From NCBI RefSeq assembly GCF_900157305.1, contig NZ_LS974202.1:682001-746000 (forward strand): a stretch of 64,000 nt of DNA, read 5' to 3'. This document shows, piece after piece, positions 27,300 to 60,517 of this stretch. Each line of letters starts with the position of its first letter. Within the stretch, counting starts at the first letter, position 1. The notes below the pieces were generated by a model. It saw only the letters and a list, made by a program, of their open reading frames with translations. It had not been told where the DNA came from and did no database searches. The stretch is from Mesotoga infera. Its GTDB lineage: Bacteria; Thermotogota; Thermotogae; Petrotogales; Kosmotogaceae. A program made the position numbers and the translations under genes.

Positions 27300-27720
27300 T
27301 CCTTCAATAAAATAGGGACTCTATTATTTTCATTTCGGAAACGTTGTTCTACGTTCCAGTGTGCCAAGAAGGCGAAGAAGGGAACTTCAAGCCATGCTTA
27401 ATTGAAGATGAGGGAGGGCCCCTCGAAGCCGTCATGCAGGTGGAGGCTTCAAACCGCCGTAAGCTGCTGTGGTAAAGAGCCATGGTAGTGGAAAGACAAA
27501 ATAGGGACTCCATTTTCTCAAGAGCGGTTCCTCCTTCCTACGCTTCGCGTCCACGTTCTCTTTCCTAGAACCGGGTCTAGGGTCTGGAAAGGGCGAGATC
27601 CCGTGCAGTTGCATCACGGGATGACATAATGAGGGGGTTCGAAGGTATATAGGGACTCCATTTTTGCGAACAAGAGCAGTTCCTCGTTCCGACTCATTGC
27701 TTCCATGTTCTTGGTTCTTA
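27300..27720. repeat. REP half-sites and repeat cassettes
   Basis: No gene. The word aatagggact followed by c(c/t)att recurs near 27309, 27499 and 27651, matching the RAYT-flanking half-site. Cassettes of the tcctcgttccgac and gcgtccacg type and one ATCCCGT..ACGGGAT hairpin (near 27598) fill the rest. Confidence 0.7.
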
Positions 27721-38312: not shown

Positions 38313-38640
38313 GTTGAGTGGCCCGGGGGGATTACACCCCCAGGCTCTCCCAGAACCGGAAATGAACCTCTCGATTCATCCGGCTCCTATTATCCAGGCG
38401 CATAGTGTATCTCCATAGTCCATTGAACAAAGAGCTTGGTAGGCAAAAGCTGCTTTGTAGCGGGGCGAATGCCTTCAAAATTGACACGACTGACTAAGCC
38501 GTGTCATGAATTCCTATGGAATTGTTTCGAACCACTTCGTGGTTGTTGATAAGGTAGCTAAGCTGAAAACCGAGTTGCACGCTAACGCATGAGGGAACCT
38601 TGAAGAACAGGGATAGTTATCAAAGGTGTTCTTTCCTTTG
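38313..38640. other. Probable group II intron remnant
   Basis: Read on the minus strand, about 38395-38345 folds as a domain V-like hairpin: GAGCCGGATGAATC..GGTTCATTTCCGGTTC, followed by a GGGGG..CCCCC domain VI-like stem and an end CCACTCAAC. To its right, 38430-38640 has several stable small hairpins (GACACG..CGTGTC, AACCAC..GTGGTT) resembling intron domain I material. No reverse-transcriptase frame and no exact intron ends were found. It differs in sequence from the introns at 53-60 kb. Confidence 0.45.
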
Positions 38641-49819: not shown

Positions 49820-50599
49820 CTAAAAAGTGGGAACAATGGAGCCTTCGAACTTGTCCCAGATGAACTGCCTCACCTCATCACGCGTGATAATCTGCTTTAG
49901 AGTGGCGAGCCACTGGCTGTTGAGGTTTTCTTCGCGAACGACTATGAAATTGGCGTACGGCGAATTGCTATCCTCAACGAAAGTGGCGTCCTTCTGTGAA
50001 TTCAATCCGATCGACAGGGCATAATTGGCGTTCAGAACCGCCCCCACGACGGTATCGTCTTCTTTGAACACCCTCGGCACAAAGCCCGCCTCCATCTCCA
50101 CCAGTACCAGCCCCTTCGGGTTGTCCTGTATATCTCTTACCGTCAAATCGGCCTTAGAAGGATCCTTCAGCGTTATCAGGCCGTTGTTGTGAAGCAGAAG
50201 CAGCGCCCTCGTCTCGTTGGTCGGGTCGTTCATCAGGGCTATTTTATCCCCCTTCTTCAGCTCCTCGAGTGGCTTTTTCATATAAAAGCCCATAGGAGCT
50301 ATGAGAACATTGACGGCGGGCACCAATCCTTTGATCCCTCTTTGTGCGGTGAAGGACTTCAAATACTGCGCGTGCTGAAAAAAGTTGGCGTCCAGTTCCT
50401 TCGAAGAAAGCGCAAGATTTGGAAGAACATAGTCGCTGAAAACGACTATCTCCAGCTCAATGCCGGCCTCTTCCAGCTGAGGCCTGATAAACTCGAGAAT
50501 ATCCACGAACGGGATCGGCGTAACTCCGATCTTCACCTTAGTAGCCCCACAAACGATGATCGCCATAACGACTACCAGAACCAGTAAAACCTTTTTCAT
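49820..50599 (-). CDS. MetQ/NlpA-family substrate-binding protein
   Basis: 259 residues. Signal peptide KKVLLVLVVVMAIIVCGATK; the cysteine has Val at -1, so lipid modification is uncertain. VKIGVTPIPFVDILEF, ELDANFFQHAQYLKSF, VNVLIAPMGFY, DKIALMNDPTNETRALLLL and DNPKGLVLVEMEAGF are diagnostic of MetQ/NlpA, receptors for methionine uptake. The metN and metI partners are not adjacent. AGGAGG precedes ATG 50599, and an intrinsic terminator sits just ahead of it in the leader. Confidence 0.9.
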   Translation of the reverse strand: MKKVLLVLVVVMAIIVCGATKVKIGVTPIPFVDILEFIRPQLEEAGIELEIVVFSDYVLPNLALSSKELDANFFQHAQYLKSFTAQRGIKGLVPAVNVLIAPMGFYMKKPLEELKKGDKIALMNDPTNETRALLLLHNNGLITLKDPSKADLTVRDIQDNPKGLVLVEMEAGFVPRVFKEDDTVVGAVLNANYALSIGLNSQKDATFVEDSNSPYANFIVVREENLNSQWLATLKQIITRDEVRQFIWDKFEGSIVPTF

Positions 50600-50617
50600 A
50601 CAACACCTCCTGAAGAA

Positions 50618-50650
50618 AATAAAAAAACGGGGTGTCTCGCGACACCCCGC
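50618..50650 (-). terminator. Attenuator-type terminator in the metQ leader
   Basis: On the minus strand CGGGGTGTC and GACACCCCG (plus 50628-50636 and 50641-50649) form a 9-bp stem with a four-base loop, followed by TTTTTTTATT. It ends only eight or so bases before the metQ ribosome site, so full-length metQ mRNA must read through it. CCCCG at about 50684-50689 could pair with the left arm as an antiterminator. Confidence 0.75.
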
Positions 50651-50659
50651 ATTTCTAAC

Positions 50660-50796
50660 AGCGACAGAGACCCTGTCAGAGCAACGGGGCTTCCCTGCAC
50701 ATCACCATGCCAATAAATATGAACCCACGCAAAATCGACAAAATAAATCCCTCCGAGTTATTGGAAGGATTATACAAAAAAAGTGATTTCGAACAA
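50660..50796 (-). promoter_or_regulatory. Promoter and structured leader of metQ (candidate riboswitch)
   Basis: Minus-strand TTGTTC (plus 50791-50796) and TATAAT (plus 50769-50774) with a 16-base spacer suggest a transcript start near 50762. The 110 nt that follow contain a GACAG..CTGTC hairpin and the CCCCG segment complementary to the terminator arm. The sequence lacks the conserved core of SAM-I riboswitches and of T-box leaders. Confidence 0.5.
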
Positions 50797-50854
50797 ATCA
50801 AATGATTGTGAATTGTGTGACGCACGATCCCACGCCGGAGGGTTATGGATAAAA

Positions 50855-51775
50855 AAGAGCGTCGAGAGTTCTCCTCGCTCTTTCGAAAGAGCGGAGATGC
50901 CGGATCAAGTCCGGCATGACAGGAAGGAGGGAAGGACGCGAAAATGGGGACTGACGGGCTCCTGACGTCTGTCCCGTTTTTCGCGAAGACGGAGATCCTG
51001 ACTAGGAGCACGTCAGGATGACCCGAAGGGACTGTCATCCCGTAATGCCCCACTCGTGTCATCCCGTAATGCTCCTATACGGGATCTCGCTCTTTAGTGC
51101 CCCCATCCTGCCATCCCGTAATAGCCTGTCCTGAAGAGCCTGCCCTGAAATGCTCCTATTCAGGGTCATCCCGTAATGCTCCTATACGGGATCTCGCTCT
51201 TGCTCTTTCGAAGGAGCGGAGATGCCGGATCAAGTCCGGCATGACAGGAAGGAGGGAAGGACGCGAAAATGGGGACTGACGGGCTCCTGACGTCTGTCCC
51301 GTTTTTCGCGAAGACGGAGATCCTGACTAGGAGCACGTCAGGATGACCCGAAGGGACTGTCATCCCGGGCTCCGACCCGGGATCCACTCCATAGAAAACC
51401 GTGATTCTGAGTCAAGCTCAGAATGACGGGAAGGGAGTAAGACTGTCATCCCGTAGTGCACCAATCCCGTCATCCCGTAATGCTCCTATACGGGATCTCG
51501 CTCCTTACGGTTGAAAGAGCAGATTCTGAGTCAAGCTCAGAATGACATCAAGTGAGTCCGGCATGACGGGAAGGAGCAAAGACCGCGAAAAACCGCGTTT
51601 TTCGCGTTCTAGACCCTAGACCCGAAACCCGAGACCCGCTGCTCGTGTCTCGTCCTCTCTCCTCCTCTCGAATCTTTTACCAATAACCTGGGCGCAACGC
51701 GCCGGAACCGCTCTTCTCGGAGGACGGTTCTTTCTGCACAGCATCGGAACGAGGAACTGCTCTTGATAAAACGGA
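50855..51775. repeat. Large hairpin repeat island (reverse orientation)
   Basis: No gene. Two near-identical runs (50886-51030 and 51215-51345) contain an ATGCCGGA hairpin, a RAYT-type hairpin (about 50938-50988 and 51262-51312) and an ATCCTGAC hairpin. ATCCCGTA, ATCCCGGG and ATTCTGAG hairpins and the tctagaccctagac cassette (51580-51655) follow. The unit order is the reverse of the islands at 37 and 41 kb. Confidence 0.85.
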
Positions 51776-51877
51776 GTCTGCCCTCCCTATGTCTCCCTTC
51801 ATATGTTCCCACAGTAAAATATATTAAACTCAAATCGCTAGAATGGTATAATGTAATAAACTAAATGGAGGTGCGAT

Positions 51878-53086
51878 ATGGTAGACCTTCAACCCTTTTT
51901 TGAGATTCAGGAGAGGCTTCTCAGTTCTGTTCCTACAGAGTTCAAGCGTTATGCGTATGAGCTCATTGATTGGAACGATCCGCTTCTGGGAATCGTTGGA
52001 GCCAGAGGCTGCGGAAAGACGACTTTGCTTCTGCAGAAGATCCTTGAGAAAGGACAGAAGGGTTTTCTATACATCTCCGGAGACAATCCCTTAGTTCTCA
52101 GAGAGGGAATATACGCCATAGGAGACACATTCTTCAAGCTTGGCGGAAAGACGCTAGTGGTAGATGAAGCTCATAGACAGCCGGGATGGGCAAATGACAT
52201 CAAAGCCTTGCATGACTCGCATCCGGGAAAGCGGATTCAATTCTCGGGCAGCTCGAGGTACTCCGTAATGAAAGGGACCGCAGACCTCTCAAGGCGAGCG
52301 GTATTGAGTGAACTGAGGCATCTCTCATTCAGAGAATTCGTCAATCTGGAGAAAGGCGAGAATTTTCCCGCATTAAGTATCAGTGAGCTTCTCGAGAATC
52401 ATATAAATATCGGCAGAAAGCTTCAGAAGCTACAGCCGCTGGAGCTGTTCAGGGAGTACTTGAGAACCGGCTCATACCCTTTCCGTCTTTCGTACGGCTC
52501 TTACTACGAGAGAATACTAAACACTCTAGACAAAGCGATTTATCAGGATGTTGTCGAACAAGATTCGCTGAGAGGTGAGGCGGCAACAATCATTAAGAAG
52601 ATCATCGCCTTTGTGGCAACCAGTGTTGTTCCTTCAATCTCTCCCGAGTCGCTATGTAAGGAGTTAGGAATAACCAAAGTTACCTTATACTCCTATCTAG
52701 ATTCTCTCGAGAGGGCGGGAATTCTGAAAAGACTCCTTCCATGCGGAAGAGGAATAAAAGGAATGCGCAGCGGTTCAAAAGTCTTTCTCGGCGAAACCAA
52801 TCTCTATTATGCTCTCGGCCTTTCGCAATGGAATCTTGAAGCAAACATGGGAACGATACGCGAAGCCTTCTTCGTTTCGCAAGTCGGTCATCTGGGAATT
52901 TGCGTACCGGCCAGCAGCGACTTTACCCTGAGAGAAAAAAACAAGGAGATTACTTTCGAAGTCGGTGGTCCAGACAAAGGAAGACGCCAGCTCAAGGATT
53001 TCTCAAATGGATTCGTACTGCGTGACGGCATCGAAATCGGGTTCGAGAACGTTATCCCGCTGTTCCTCTTCGGGTTTCTCTATTAG
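51878..53086 (+). CDS. AAA ATPase with DUF4143 domain
   Basis: 402 residues. Walker A GARGCGKTTLL at about residue 41, Walker B KTLVVDEAHRQPGW, then the AAA_14 part with FSGSSRYSVMKGTADLSRR and LSFREF. The C-terminal DUF4143 half has REYLRTGSYPF, a winged helix (SLCKELGITKVTLYSYLDSLERAGILK) and a nuclease-like end (EVGGPDKGRRQL). This family is widespread and of uncertain function. TGGTATAAT (51844-51852) is an extended -10 and GGAGGTG precedes ATG 51878. Confidence 0.88.
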   Translation: MVDLQPFFEIQERLLSSVPTEFKRYAYELIDWNDPLLGIVGARGCGKTTLLLQKILEKGQKGFLYISGDNPLVLREGIYAIGDTFFKLGGKTLVVDEAHRQPGWANDIKALHDSHPGKRIQFSGSSRYSVMKGTADLSRRAVLSELRHLSFREFVNLEKGENFPALSISELLENHINIGRKLQKLQPLELFREYLRTGSYPFRLSYGSYYERILNTLDKAIYQDVVEQDSLRGEAATIIKKIIAFVATSVVPSISPESLCKELGITKVTLYSYLDSLERAGILKRLLPCGRGIKGMRSGSKVFLGETNLYYALGLSQWNLEANMGTIREAFFVSQVGHLGICVPASSDFTLREKNKEITFEVGGPDKGRRQLKDFSNGFVLRDGIEIGFENVIPLFLFGFLY

Positions 53087-53241
53087 GAGAGGCATCATTT
53101 CGGATTCTGTACCTCCGAACCTGGACGCGTAACGTCGGAACGAATAACTGCTCTTTCGCTCTCTCTCAGGACAATCGAGTAGGAGAGGGGCGGAGCCCCT
53201 CGTCCTCTCACAGAACCGTGCGTACGGGCCTCGTACACGGC

Positions 53242-54032
53242 TCATGGATCGAGTATCGGATACTTCGACAGGGGATGATAGTACGATGTCATATCGAATA
53301 AGTTTATCTCTTCAAAGAACCTGTTGGGAATGGCGTAATTGACTGCTTTTGTGTGAGAAGAGCGCCATTTGTTCATTCTCAAATTGACTTTCTCTTCCCA
53401 TCCAGCCCTTCTAAGGACTCTGTTCAGTTTCTTTGTGCTCTTCCACTGGTGTAGTATGATGGCTCTAAGCCTTCTCCTTATCCAGCTCAAAAGCCCTCTC
53501 AAGGTAGATTGTAAGTCTACTATCCTGAAATAGCTGGCAAATCCTCTCAACAGTGGATTTAGCTCTTTCACTATTTCCTTTACCGGTGTGCTCTGGTTCC
53601 TTCTTGTAAGTCCCTTGACCTTTCCCTTGAACCTTTTCAATCTGGATTTCTCTATCCCAACTCTCTCGCCTTTTATTTCGAAGCCAAGAAAGTGAAAGCC
53701 CTCCTCCAGTGTTGTGATTCTCGTCTTGTTTCTGTTGACCTTGAGCTTCATGTCAATCTCCAGTATGTTGATCGCGATTGCCAGAAACTCTCGGGCTTCT
53801 TCCTGGGTTTTCGAGAAGATTAATATGTCGTCTGCATATCTGACTATCCTTATTCCTCTGGCTTTCATCTTCTGGTCGAACTCGTCCAGGTAGATGTTCG
53901 CCAGCAGGGGACTTATTACACTACCCTGTGGACTGCCAGTTTCTGTTGCCTTCCAGACTCCATCTTCCATTACTCCGCTCTTCAGCATTGCGCGTATGAG
54001 TTTGAGTATCTTTCCATCACTCACTCTCTCTG
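53242..54032 (-). pseudogene. Group II intron reverse transcriptase/maturase, C-terminal part (intron A)
   Basis: About 262 codons. TGSPQGSVISPLLANIYL and RIVRYADDILIF are reverse-transcriptase motifs with the catalytic YADD. FHFLGFEIKGER and the region around VKGLTRRNQSTPVKEIV are the end of RT and start of the maturase domain. There is no endonuclease domain after GWEEKVNLRMNKWRSS. The N-terminal part is absent from copy A. It cannot make an active enzyme. Confidence 0.88.
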
Positions 54033-54143
54033 TGTCGACATCAACAGTAAAATAAGAAAAACGCCGGTAGAAAATGTGAAAAAGCATCGGGAGAAATTGT
54101 GGACTAACATTTGAATATTCTCAGGCAAAAAGGGGGTATTCAG

Positions 54144-56013: not shown

Positions 56014-56328
56014 TTTCACAAAAATCGTTGATGTTTTTCCACATTTCCGATCGATGTTTTTTCACATTTCCGATTGATGTTGACAACACCACTTTCATCC
56101 GAATCCTGCCATCCGAACCTTTACAGCTGGAGTCAGGGCTTTCCCTTATCTCGCAGGGTTACCCTCTGTAACGGCCATCTCTGGTTCACTTTCGTTCAGT
56201 TCCGGACTTTGCCTCGGGCTTCCTTCAGATTCACCGTTACCAGTGACACCCTTGCCTCTGGCTAATGCTTCTTTGACTCCCCACATTCGGGTCTTTCACC
56301 CTATAGTTGTGTACCATGCCGGGCGCAC

Positions 56329-56524
56329 GAGATTCTGAGTCAAGCTTAGAATGATGGGAAGGAAGAAGGACCGTCATCCCGTAATGATCCTATACGGGAT
56401 CTCGCTCAGAAGAGCCGTCCTTCGTTGTTCGTCCCAGATCATGGACCCGTCCTTCGTGCAGTTCCTCGTTCCGACGCTGCGAGTCCAGGCTCCTCGTTCC
56501 TGGTTCAAGACAGAGGAAAGAGCG
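56329..56524. repeat. Repeat-derived spacer between the two introns
   Basis: 196 bases made of the ATTCTGAG hairpin that forms the 5' exon of intron A, an ATCCCGTA..TACGGGAT hairpin, and the gtccttcgttgttcgtcc and cctcgttccgacgctgcg cassettes. It ends in gacagaggaaagagcg, the 3' exon side of intron B. No gene. Confidence 0.8.
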
Positions 56525-56592
56525 ATCGAGTAGGAGAGGGGCGGAGCCCCTCGTCCTCTCACAGAACCGTGCGTACGGGCCTCGTACACGGC

Positions 56593-57383
56593 TCATGGAT
56601 CGAGTATCGGATACTTCGACAGGGGATGATAGTACGATGTCATATCGAATAAGTTCATCTCTTCAAAGAACCTGTTGGGAATGGCGTAATTGACTGCTTT
56701 TGTGTGAGAAGAGCGCCATTTGTTCATTCTCAAATTGACTTTCTCTTCCCATCCAGCCCTTCTAAGGACTCTGTTCAGTTTCTTTGTGCTCTTCCACTGG
56801 TGTAGTATGATGGCTCTAAGCCTTCTCCTTATCCAGCTCAAAAGCCCTCTCAAGGTAGATTGTAAGTCTACTATCCTGAAATAGCTGGCAAATCCTCTCA
56901 ACAGTGGATTTAGCTCTTTCACTATTTCCTTTACCGGTGTGCTCTGGTTCCTTCTTGTAAGTCCCTTGACCTTTCCCTTGAACCTTTTCAATCTGGATTT
57001 CTCTATCCCAACTCTCTCGCCTTTTATTTCGAAGCCAAGAAAGTGAAAGCCCTCCTCCAGTGTTGTGATTCTCGTCTTGTTTCTGTTGACCTTGAGCTTC
57101 ATGTCAATCTCCAGTATGTTGATCGCGATTGCCAGAAACTCTCGGGCTTCTTCCTGGGTTTTCGAGAAGATTAATATGTCGTCTGCATATCTGACTATCC
57201 TTATTCCTCTGGCTTTCATCTTCTGGTCGAACTCGTCCAGGTAGATGTTCGCCAGCAGGGGACTTATTACACTACCCTGTGGACTGCCAGTTTCTGTTGC
57301 CTTCCAGACTCCATCTTCCATTACTCCGCTCTTCAGCATTGCGCGTATGAGTTTGAGTATCTTTCCATCACTCACTCTCTCTG
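56593..57383 (-). pseudogene. Group II intron reverse transcriptase, C-terminal part (intron B)
   Basis: Same as the part in intron A except for one residue (FFEEM here, FFEEI there). It continues in frame from the N-terminal part at 59437-59976 once the IS and one CTCTG are removed, giving ..DSVAE|RVSDGKIL... The total would be 441 residues. Confidence 0.88.
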
Positions 57384-59976: not shown

Positions 59977-60517
59977 TTAATGACTGGCTTCTCTACCCTC
60001 CCGGGAATATGTACCTTGTCTTTAACTGTCTGACCTAAGTCTCTTCACTGTCTTCCGATCACATTTCTTCGATCCTTCTCCCCTTCGCAAGTGATGGAGC
60101 CTTTCGACCTCCTCATCACCCCCTTGGCTTATAGCCAAGGTCCCTTCTCCTTTCGGAGAGGTTCTTCACTACTACGGGTTCATCTGCCATCCTCCTGAGC
60201 TTTCCCTTAACTTGGATCTCCTCCTTGCTAACGGTTACCCCTTTCGGACTCATGAGGACTTCCCCGGGTAAGATACACCACTTTCATCCGAATCCTGCCA
60301 TCCGAACCTTTACAGCTGGAGTCAGGGCTTTCCCTTATCTCGCAGGGTTACCCTCTGTAACGGCCATCTCTGGTTCACTTTCGTTCAGTTCCGGACTTTG
60401 CCTCGGGCTTCCTTCAGATTCACCGTTACCAGTGACACCCTTGCCTCTGGCTAATGCTTCTTTGACTCCCCACATTCGGGTCTTTCACCCTATAGTTGTG
60501 TACCATGCCGGGCGCAC

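Follow-up and report, generated by a model that had tools for sequence, protein, structure and literature searches.

A probable methionine leader peptide upstream of a stand-alone metQ gene in Mesotoga infera and its counterparts across the Thermotogae

The leader of a stand-alone metQ gene

The window analyzed here is a 64,000-nt stretch of the Mesotoga infera genome (contig NZ_LS974202.1, positions 682,001 to 746,000), and its minus strand carries a stand-alone second copy of a gene for a metQ-type substrate-binding lipoprotein (49820..50599; PF03180, Pfam E 4e-76). The solved relatives of this protein include MetQ chains, and it scores below the curated NCBIfam MetQ/NlpA cut-offs. It shares only 58% identity with the operon-encoded MetQ of its own genome and 63% with the MetQ of G041, a genome of another family. 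In a tree of 31 MetQ proteins from the class and 13 others (leaving out G010, G035, and both G014 pieces), it forms a separate long branch (0.46) next to the operon copy, and it may have originated by an old duplication or by transfer. Elsewhere in the window are pieces of group II introns (RF00029, RF01999, RF02001) at 53174-54087, 56084-56596, 60273-60435, 38313-38388, and 27410-27506, one of them adjoined by a reverse-transcriptase-like ORF. Inspection by eye of the intergenic region at 50870-51560, upstream of the metQ leader, revealed dense dispersed repeats, including a segment of about 150 nt present in two near-identical copies, which start at about 50877 and about 51200, and many short palindromic units like GTCATCCCG / ATGCCGGATCAAGTCCGGCATGAC.

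The metQ start codon (AUG at 50599, minus strand) is preceded by a Shine-Dalgarno sequence, AGGAGG (50606..50611, minus strand), which lies 3' of the T-tract of an intrinsic terminator. This terminator (50627..50650, minus strand) reads GCGGGGUGUC-GCGA-GACACCCCGU and runs into a U tract; it consists of a 10-bp stem with 7 G-C pairs, a 4-nt loop, and a T-rich tail. The terminator scan listed it first of 9 terminator-like sites in 50000-52500, where shuffles average 3.2. A preliminary description of this DNA, made from the sequence alone, had recognized about 110 nt of leader, transcribed leftward, and a strong intrinsic terminator ahead of the metQ ribosome site, and both are real. The promoter that it proposed stands on its −10 box, a TATAAT at 50769..50774 (minus strand) that recurs in like surroundings in two sister leaders, those of G003 and G009; the −35 element TTGTTC (50791-50796, minus strand) is weak, with 3/6 consensus matches, and the box at 50774-50769 is absent from the output of a promoter scan of the region. 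Transcription of the leader would start at about 50762. The folding stability of the complete leader, which had also been called structured, shows just a modest excess over shuffles (z −2.1; 6/200 as good).

The element overlooked in that description is a short ORF (50741-50676) that contains Met codons; in the mechanical ORF list it was concealed at the end of a longer ORF of 128 aa. Its Shine-Dalgarno sequence, GGAGGG (50749..50754, minus strand), is found in G003, G007, and G009 too, and its 21 codons run from a UUG start at 50741 to a UGA stop at 50678-50676 and encode the peptide MSILRGFIFIGMVMCREAPLL. The regulatory codons are AUG GUG AUG (Met-Val-Met; 50700..50708, minus strand), so that this leader contains two Met codons only, at 50708-50706 and 50702-50700, with a Val codon between them. 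After the last Met codon come 9 nt (UGC AGG GAA) and then, still within the ORF, the antiterminator strand GCCCCGUU (DNA GCCCCGTT; 50683..50690, minus strand), which is complementary to TGCGGGG in the 5' arm of the terminator. A CCCCG segment that had been noticed earlier as a possible partner of the terminator arm (50689-50685) is part of this strand. The pairing was equaled or bettered in 17/1000 shuffles.

Rfam models at the gathering score identified no family in the window leader, and a permissive scan returned sub-threshold matches at chance level only, with no SAM or T-box family among them, in agreement with the earlier remark that SAM-I and T-box cores are absent here. SAM-I (RF00162) was likewise not among the matches listed for genome G000 in a scan that scored 33 of 193 first-look candidates.

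Methionine leaders upstream of metQ across the class

MetQ matches (E 1e-20) were obtained in 30 of the 103 genomes sampled from the class, giving 37 rows that represent 35 loci once the two rows each of G010 and G035, which are pieces of one gene, are counted singly. Two fragments from G014 start at contig ends and were left out, leaving 33 testable upstream regions. In 23 of these, an ORF led by a Shine-Dalgarno sequence and containing a Met cluster is followed by an intrinsic terminator (hereafter Met leader); 9 have SAM-I without a Met-cluster ORF; and the last, in G033, has neither device in the short stretch before its contig ends. The preliminary description had named two findings that would refute its reading, a leader without conservation in relatives and a terminator that merely ends an upstream leftward transcript. 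The layout recurs in 23/33 class upstreams, and since relatives keep the leader together with metQ, the terminator is not just the end of such a transcript.

The closest orthologues retain MVMC, with C-terminal ends GMVMCREAPLL, SMVMCREAPLF, SMVMCRETPL, and GMVMCRETPFR, and other lineages have Met clusters such as NMMMMWH, HMCMPWQ, NMMMPWC, and MNMIMCTSAP. The window's own genome has a further Met leader, encoding MDFKAVGGKKISMMMYGNALVSSGA, before its metQ-metN-metI operon, in which gene 2 carries a NIL domain and gene 3 is closest to MetI. Shuffled leaders produced a Shine-Dalgarno-led ORF with a Met cluster in 22/6900 cases. By eye, the upstream regions of three PF01053 genes and metK in the window's genome lack a Met-cluster ORF with a terminator. 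Among metQ loci from named records in other phyla 0/79 have the leader, which is a weak control, with a terminator-like site upstream in 5/80; the remaining 1 of the 80 loci belongs to a Thermotogales MAG and has the leader. At one locus, in genome G035, metQ is broken by stop codons and the Met leader and terminator are intact.

In all 23 metQ leaders, a strand close behind the last Met codon pairs with the 5' arm of the terminator, and the sequences involved are lineage-specific (for example GCCCCGU/ACGGGG, GCGCCCC/GGGGCGC, ACCGGUCUUCU/GAGAAGGCCGGU, and AACCGA/UCGGUU). The pairing beats 95% of 1,000 shuffles in 18/23 leaders; those below this mark, with the number of shuffles per 1,000 as good, are G013 (472), the G007 orphan (140), G041 (95), G035 (62), and the G009 orphan (55). 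When strands and arms were exchanged among 9 metQ representatives, the leaders' own combinations summed to −141.9 kcal/mol versus a permuted mean of −85.1 kcal/mol (sd 13.7), with 0/20000 permutations as good, and in an exact permutation of 7 metQ lineages 11/5040 arrangements were as good as the own pairs. These leaders retain a mutually exclusive antiterminator through compensatory change of both arms. A putative protector (1:2) hairpin, which would free the terminator in the absence of a ribosome, can be discerned clearly just downstream of the Met codons in some lineages but not in others.

These observations bear on the possibility, raised in the preliminary description, of a new or diverged sensor of methionine or SAM. 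As a riboswitch, the leader RNA itself would bind methionine, SAM, or SAH and thereby select between antiterminator and terminator. A leader with a terminator and an alternative pairing before a methionine-transport gene fits such a sensor, as does the presence of SAM-I at the same gene in relatives. What the lineages share, however, is a reading frame with Met codons and helices of changing sequence; the ORF is free to vary in its N-terminal parts, and conserved unpaired core nucleotides were not seen in leaders aligned by eye. The spacing of about 9 nt between Met codon and antiterminator is also something that an aptamer would not need. Rfam searches for such an element at gathering and permissive thresholds returned no relevant match, and we regard a riboswitch as very improbable.

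In the MetQ tree the class forms one group (100/99), the owners of SAM-I form one clade (100/99), and the owners of Met leaders are spread over several branches beside the SAM-I clade. The simplest reading of these sequences is that SAM-I replaced the Met leader in one clade, although the position of the root inside the class is unsettled. G037 (L026 and contig C71:618-3111) has SAM-I before its HcyBio gene and a Met leader before metQ, and therefore both sensors coexist in one genome. Near the SAM-I/metQ region of G024 there is also an HNH endonuclease-associated HEARO RNA (L014, 3301-3525).

A second gene set in homocysteine and methionine synthesis

A pattern search of the form ATGATGATG...TTTTTT revealed leaders ahead of aspartokinase genes. 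Matches to such patterns are mostly due to chance, and only those with leader anatomy were pursued, with full listing for 33 chosen genomes. HcyBio (PF01837) occurs in 35/103 genomes, and 34 loci were examined, G065 being left out since its match begins at a contig start. A Met leader precedes 22/34 of these loci, SAM-I precedes 3/34, and 9/34 have neither. The 22 leaders comprise 13 at the 22 fetched loci, 8 in family f10, and the one in G039, and the three SAM-I elements, all on the same strand upstream of HcyBio (G031, G033, and G037), belong to loci outside the Met-leader scan. With the leader of G051, which lies before aspartokinase on a contig that stops before any HcyBio, the second set totals 23 leaders before aspartokinase, metH, or HcyBio operons. 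SAM-I and Met leaders are thus found at the same genes in different relatives.

The gene order behind these leaders varies: MKSLGIFIHFENNVIVMIMCIHAPGGAPGI is encoded ahead of a 188-aa gene, a metH-type gene, and aspartokinase; MKNQANAFQRKGYMMMRHTPPKLGGRV ahead of aspartokinase, semialdehyde dehydrogenase, and HcyBio; and a peptide with C-terminal MMAMMMWRTDRPVCP ahead of aspartokinase, HcyBio, and methylenetetrahydrofolate reductase. Run on the opposite strand of each of the 22 loci fetched, the scanner returned 0 matches. The 9 leaderless loci among them still gave none when the terminator condition was dropped, the Met-ORFs found in that search sitting inside HcyBio. Rfam scans of 20 of the 22 fetched upstream regions produced nothing relevant at gathering or permissive thresholds. 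For six aspartokinase-HcyBio operons in family f3 (genera g29 and g30; L185, L188, L189, L191, L194, and L196), the sequence retrieved contains no Met leader and no SAM-I.

The loci of the second set were chosen on Met runs together with terminators or T runs, and not on pairing. In a swap test on 13 of the 23 leaders, own combinations reached −221.7 versus −128.4 for permuted ones (sd 13.7), with 0/20000 as good. Together with the window leader and its 22 further metQ counterparts, the 23 biosynthetic leaders make 46, with 44 different peptides containing 2 to 7 internal Met each, from 8 of 11 family labels (f1, f2, f3, f4, f5, f6, f8, and f10). The Met cluster in 46/46 is a selection criterion, whereas the pairing offset was not selected.

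An ordinary terminator or small RNA before metQ, with the ORF and the complementarity arising by chance, would be in keeping with the modest stability of the window leader relative to shuffles and with a promoter that is weak by consensus. This reading is contradicted by the fact that ORF, Met cluster, and matched pairing are found together in 46 leaders ahead of genes related to methionine, and by the low yield of such ORFs from the shuffled leaders given above, and it is the least likely that we considered, to be entertained only as an extreme improbability. The pairing and its recurrence in 46 leaders instead support a transcription attenuator that chooses between the terminator and an alternative fold, as the preliminary description had suspected, and make the link to methionine that it drew a probable one.

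Ribosome position, proposed mechanism, and known systems

The effect of a translating ribosome was modeled by masking a footprint that extended 15 nt upstream and 9 nt downstream of the A-site codon and folding the nascent RNA to the end of the terminator 5' arm, with loss of pairing taken as a fall below 60% of the best value. Modeled antiterminator pairing persisted with the ribosome at or upstream of the Met cluster, and in 22/23 metQ leaders it was lost 0 or +1 codon beyond the last Met; the exception is G026, where the rule fires early because pairing stays low up to the Met run and peaks with the ribosome there. For the second set, 19/23 leaders showed the modeled loss 0 to +2 codons beyond the last Met, with no loss in G050 and G076 and early loss in G082 and G088. 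Across both sets, modeled pairing was gone within two codons past the last Met in 41/46 leaders. In the window leader the antiterminator has a predicted value of 0.88 with no ribosome, 0.70 with the ribosome at the second AUG, 0.43 one codon later, and 0.01 at the Pro codon. At equilibrium the complete leader gives the terminator a value of 0.97 at nearly every ribosome position and the switch is not visible, so the choice must be kinetic and made during transcription. Since the nascent RNA without a ribosome already prefers the antiterminator, the model does not predict the untranslated default state.

Stalling at a fixed site would work the same RNA switch if, instead of responding to starvation for Met-tRNA, the leader peptide sensed methionine or SAM in the ribosomal tunnel and arrested its own synthesis. 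Residues that recur behind the Met cluster in related leaders, for example MCxxAP, could be taken as a trace of such a peptide. However, 46 leaders encode 44 different peptides, and the residues that would occupy the tunnel ahead of the Met cluster are unconserved between families, the Met cluster alone being common to them. Arrest by the nascent peptide is accordingly a poor candidate, and we give it scant probability.

We are highly confident that the leader instead acts by ribosome-mediated transcription attenuation, with a methionine leader peptide sensing charged Met-tRNA. We infer that the ORF is translated, that ribosomes stall in it when methionine runs short, and in which direction expression responds. 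RNA polymerase would start at about 50762, and a ribosome would load at GGAGGG and translate the 21 codons of the peptide. Under a shortage of charged Met-tRNA, the ribosome would stall with the AUG at 50708-50706 or 50702-50700 in its A site, and since its footprint would end about 9 nt downstream, GCCCCGUU would be left exposed. The exposed strand would then pair with the emerging UGCGGGG, blocking the terminator and allowing metQ to be transcribed. When Met-tRNA is plentiful, the ribosome would reach the UGA and mask GCCCCGUU, the terminator at 50650-50627 would form, and transcription would stop before metQ. The device is very probably a Met-specific variant of the trp/his-type attenuator with a simpler strand geometry and not a new riboswitch.

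Methionine genes are usually explained by SAM riboswitches, T-boxes, or repressors, and in this class leader peptides seemingly control two gene sets. We think it reasonably likely, with less assurance than for the mechanism of the single leader, that charged Met-tRNA sensed through leader peptides is the main RNA-level methionine signal of the class, that the leaders govern an old regulon (metQ, metN, and metI; metH, aspartokinase, HcyBio, and metF) in which SAM-I and Met leaders have been swapped at the same genes, and that the antiterminator geometry has been simplified. Such an exchange would shift the sensed signal from SAM to charged Met-tRNA and offers a natural comparison of the two sensors. 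The class-wide regulon is of greater interest than the window leader itself. The Met leader can also guide the annotation of orphan structured leaders in genomes of the class, and the practical lesson is to translate a leader before proposing a new riboswitch.

In the portions of the literature available to us, a search found no Met leader peptide for Thermotogae, and an earlier prediction may exist. The nearest precedent is the metL peptide of Streptomyces lividans, a Met-containing leader peptide before metNIQ for which control of the methionine import operon has been proposed (PMC8079986). As far as the accessible sections of that paper go, it differs from the Met leader in its actinobacterial host, a leaderless transcript, the lack of a typical Rho-independent terminator, its description in one strain, and the absence of a Met run (PMC8079986). 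A single-amino-acid leader ORF for transcription control has likewise been proposed in the cysS leader of Rhodobacterales (uORFC-8-2), which concerns cysteine and alphaproteobacteria, and the words methionine and metQ do not appear in the text available from that source (PMC8632094). Where their text is accessible, Seliverstov 2005 reports Actinobacteria methionine operons without conserved upstream RNA structures (PMC1262725), an RNA-regulon survey that included 11 Thermotogales genomes used Rfam motifs and does not contain the term "leader peptide" (PMC3766115), and Korolev 2016 mentions Thermotogae in connection with leader-gene distances (PMC4833913).

Within the class, SAM-I (S-box, RF00162) is the device at these genes in other relatives, where it controls metQ in 9 genomes and the HcyBio operon in 3. 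Unlike the Met leader, it senses SAM through an aptamer and does not need translation, and the window leader has no match to it. The trp, his, leu, thr, and phe operons of enterobacteria are controlled by ribosome-mediated attenuators with a leader ORF. They share with the Met leader a short ORF with many codons for the amino acid that the pathway concerns, a terminator before the first gene, an alternative antiterminator, and a codon position that lets a stalled ribosome decide the fold; the Met leader differs from them in its Met codons and its Thermotogae host. The trp attenuator has a separate region 2 behind the leader ORF, whereas the antiterminator strand of the Met leader is part of the ORF, follows immediately on the regulatory codons, and forms its duplex with the 5' arm of the terminator itself.
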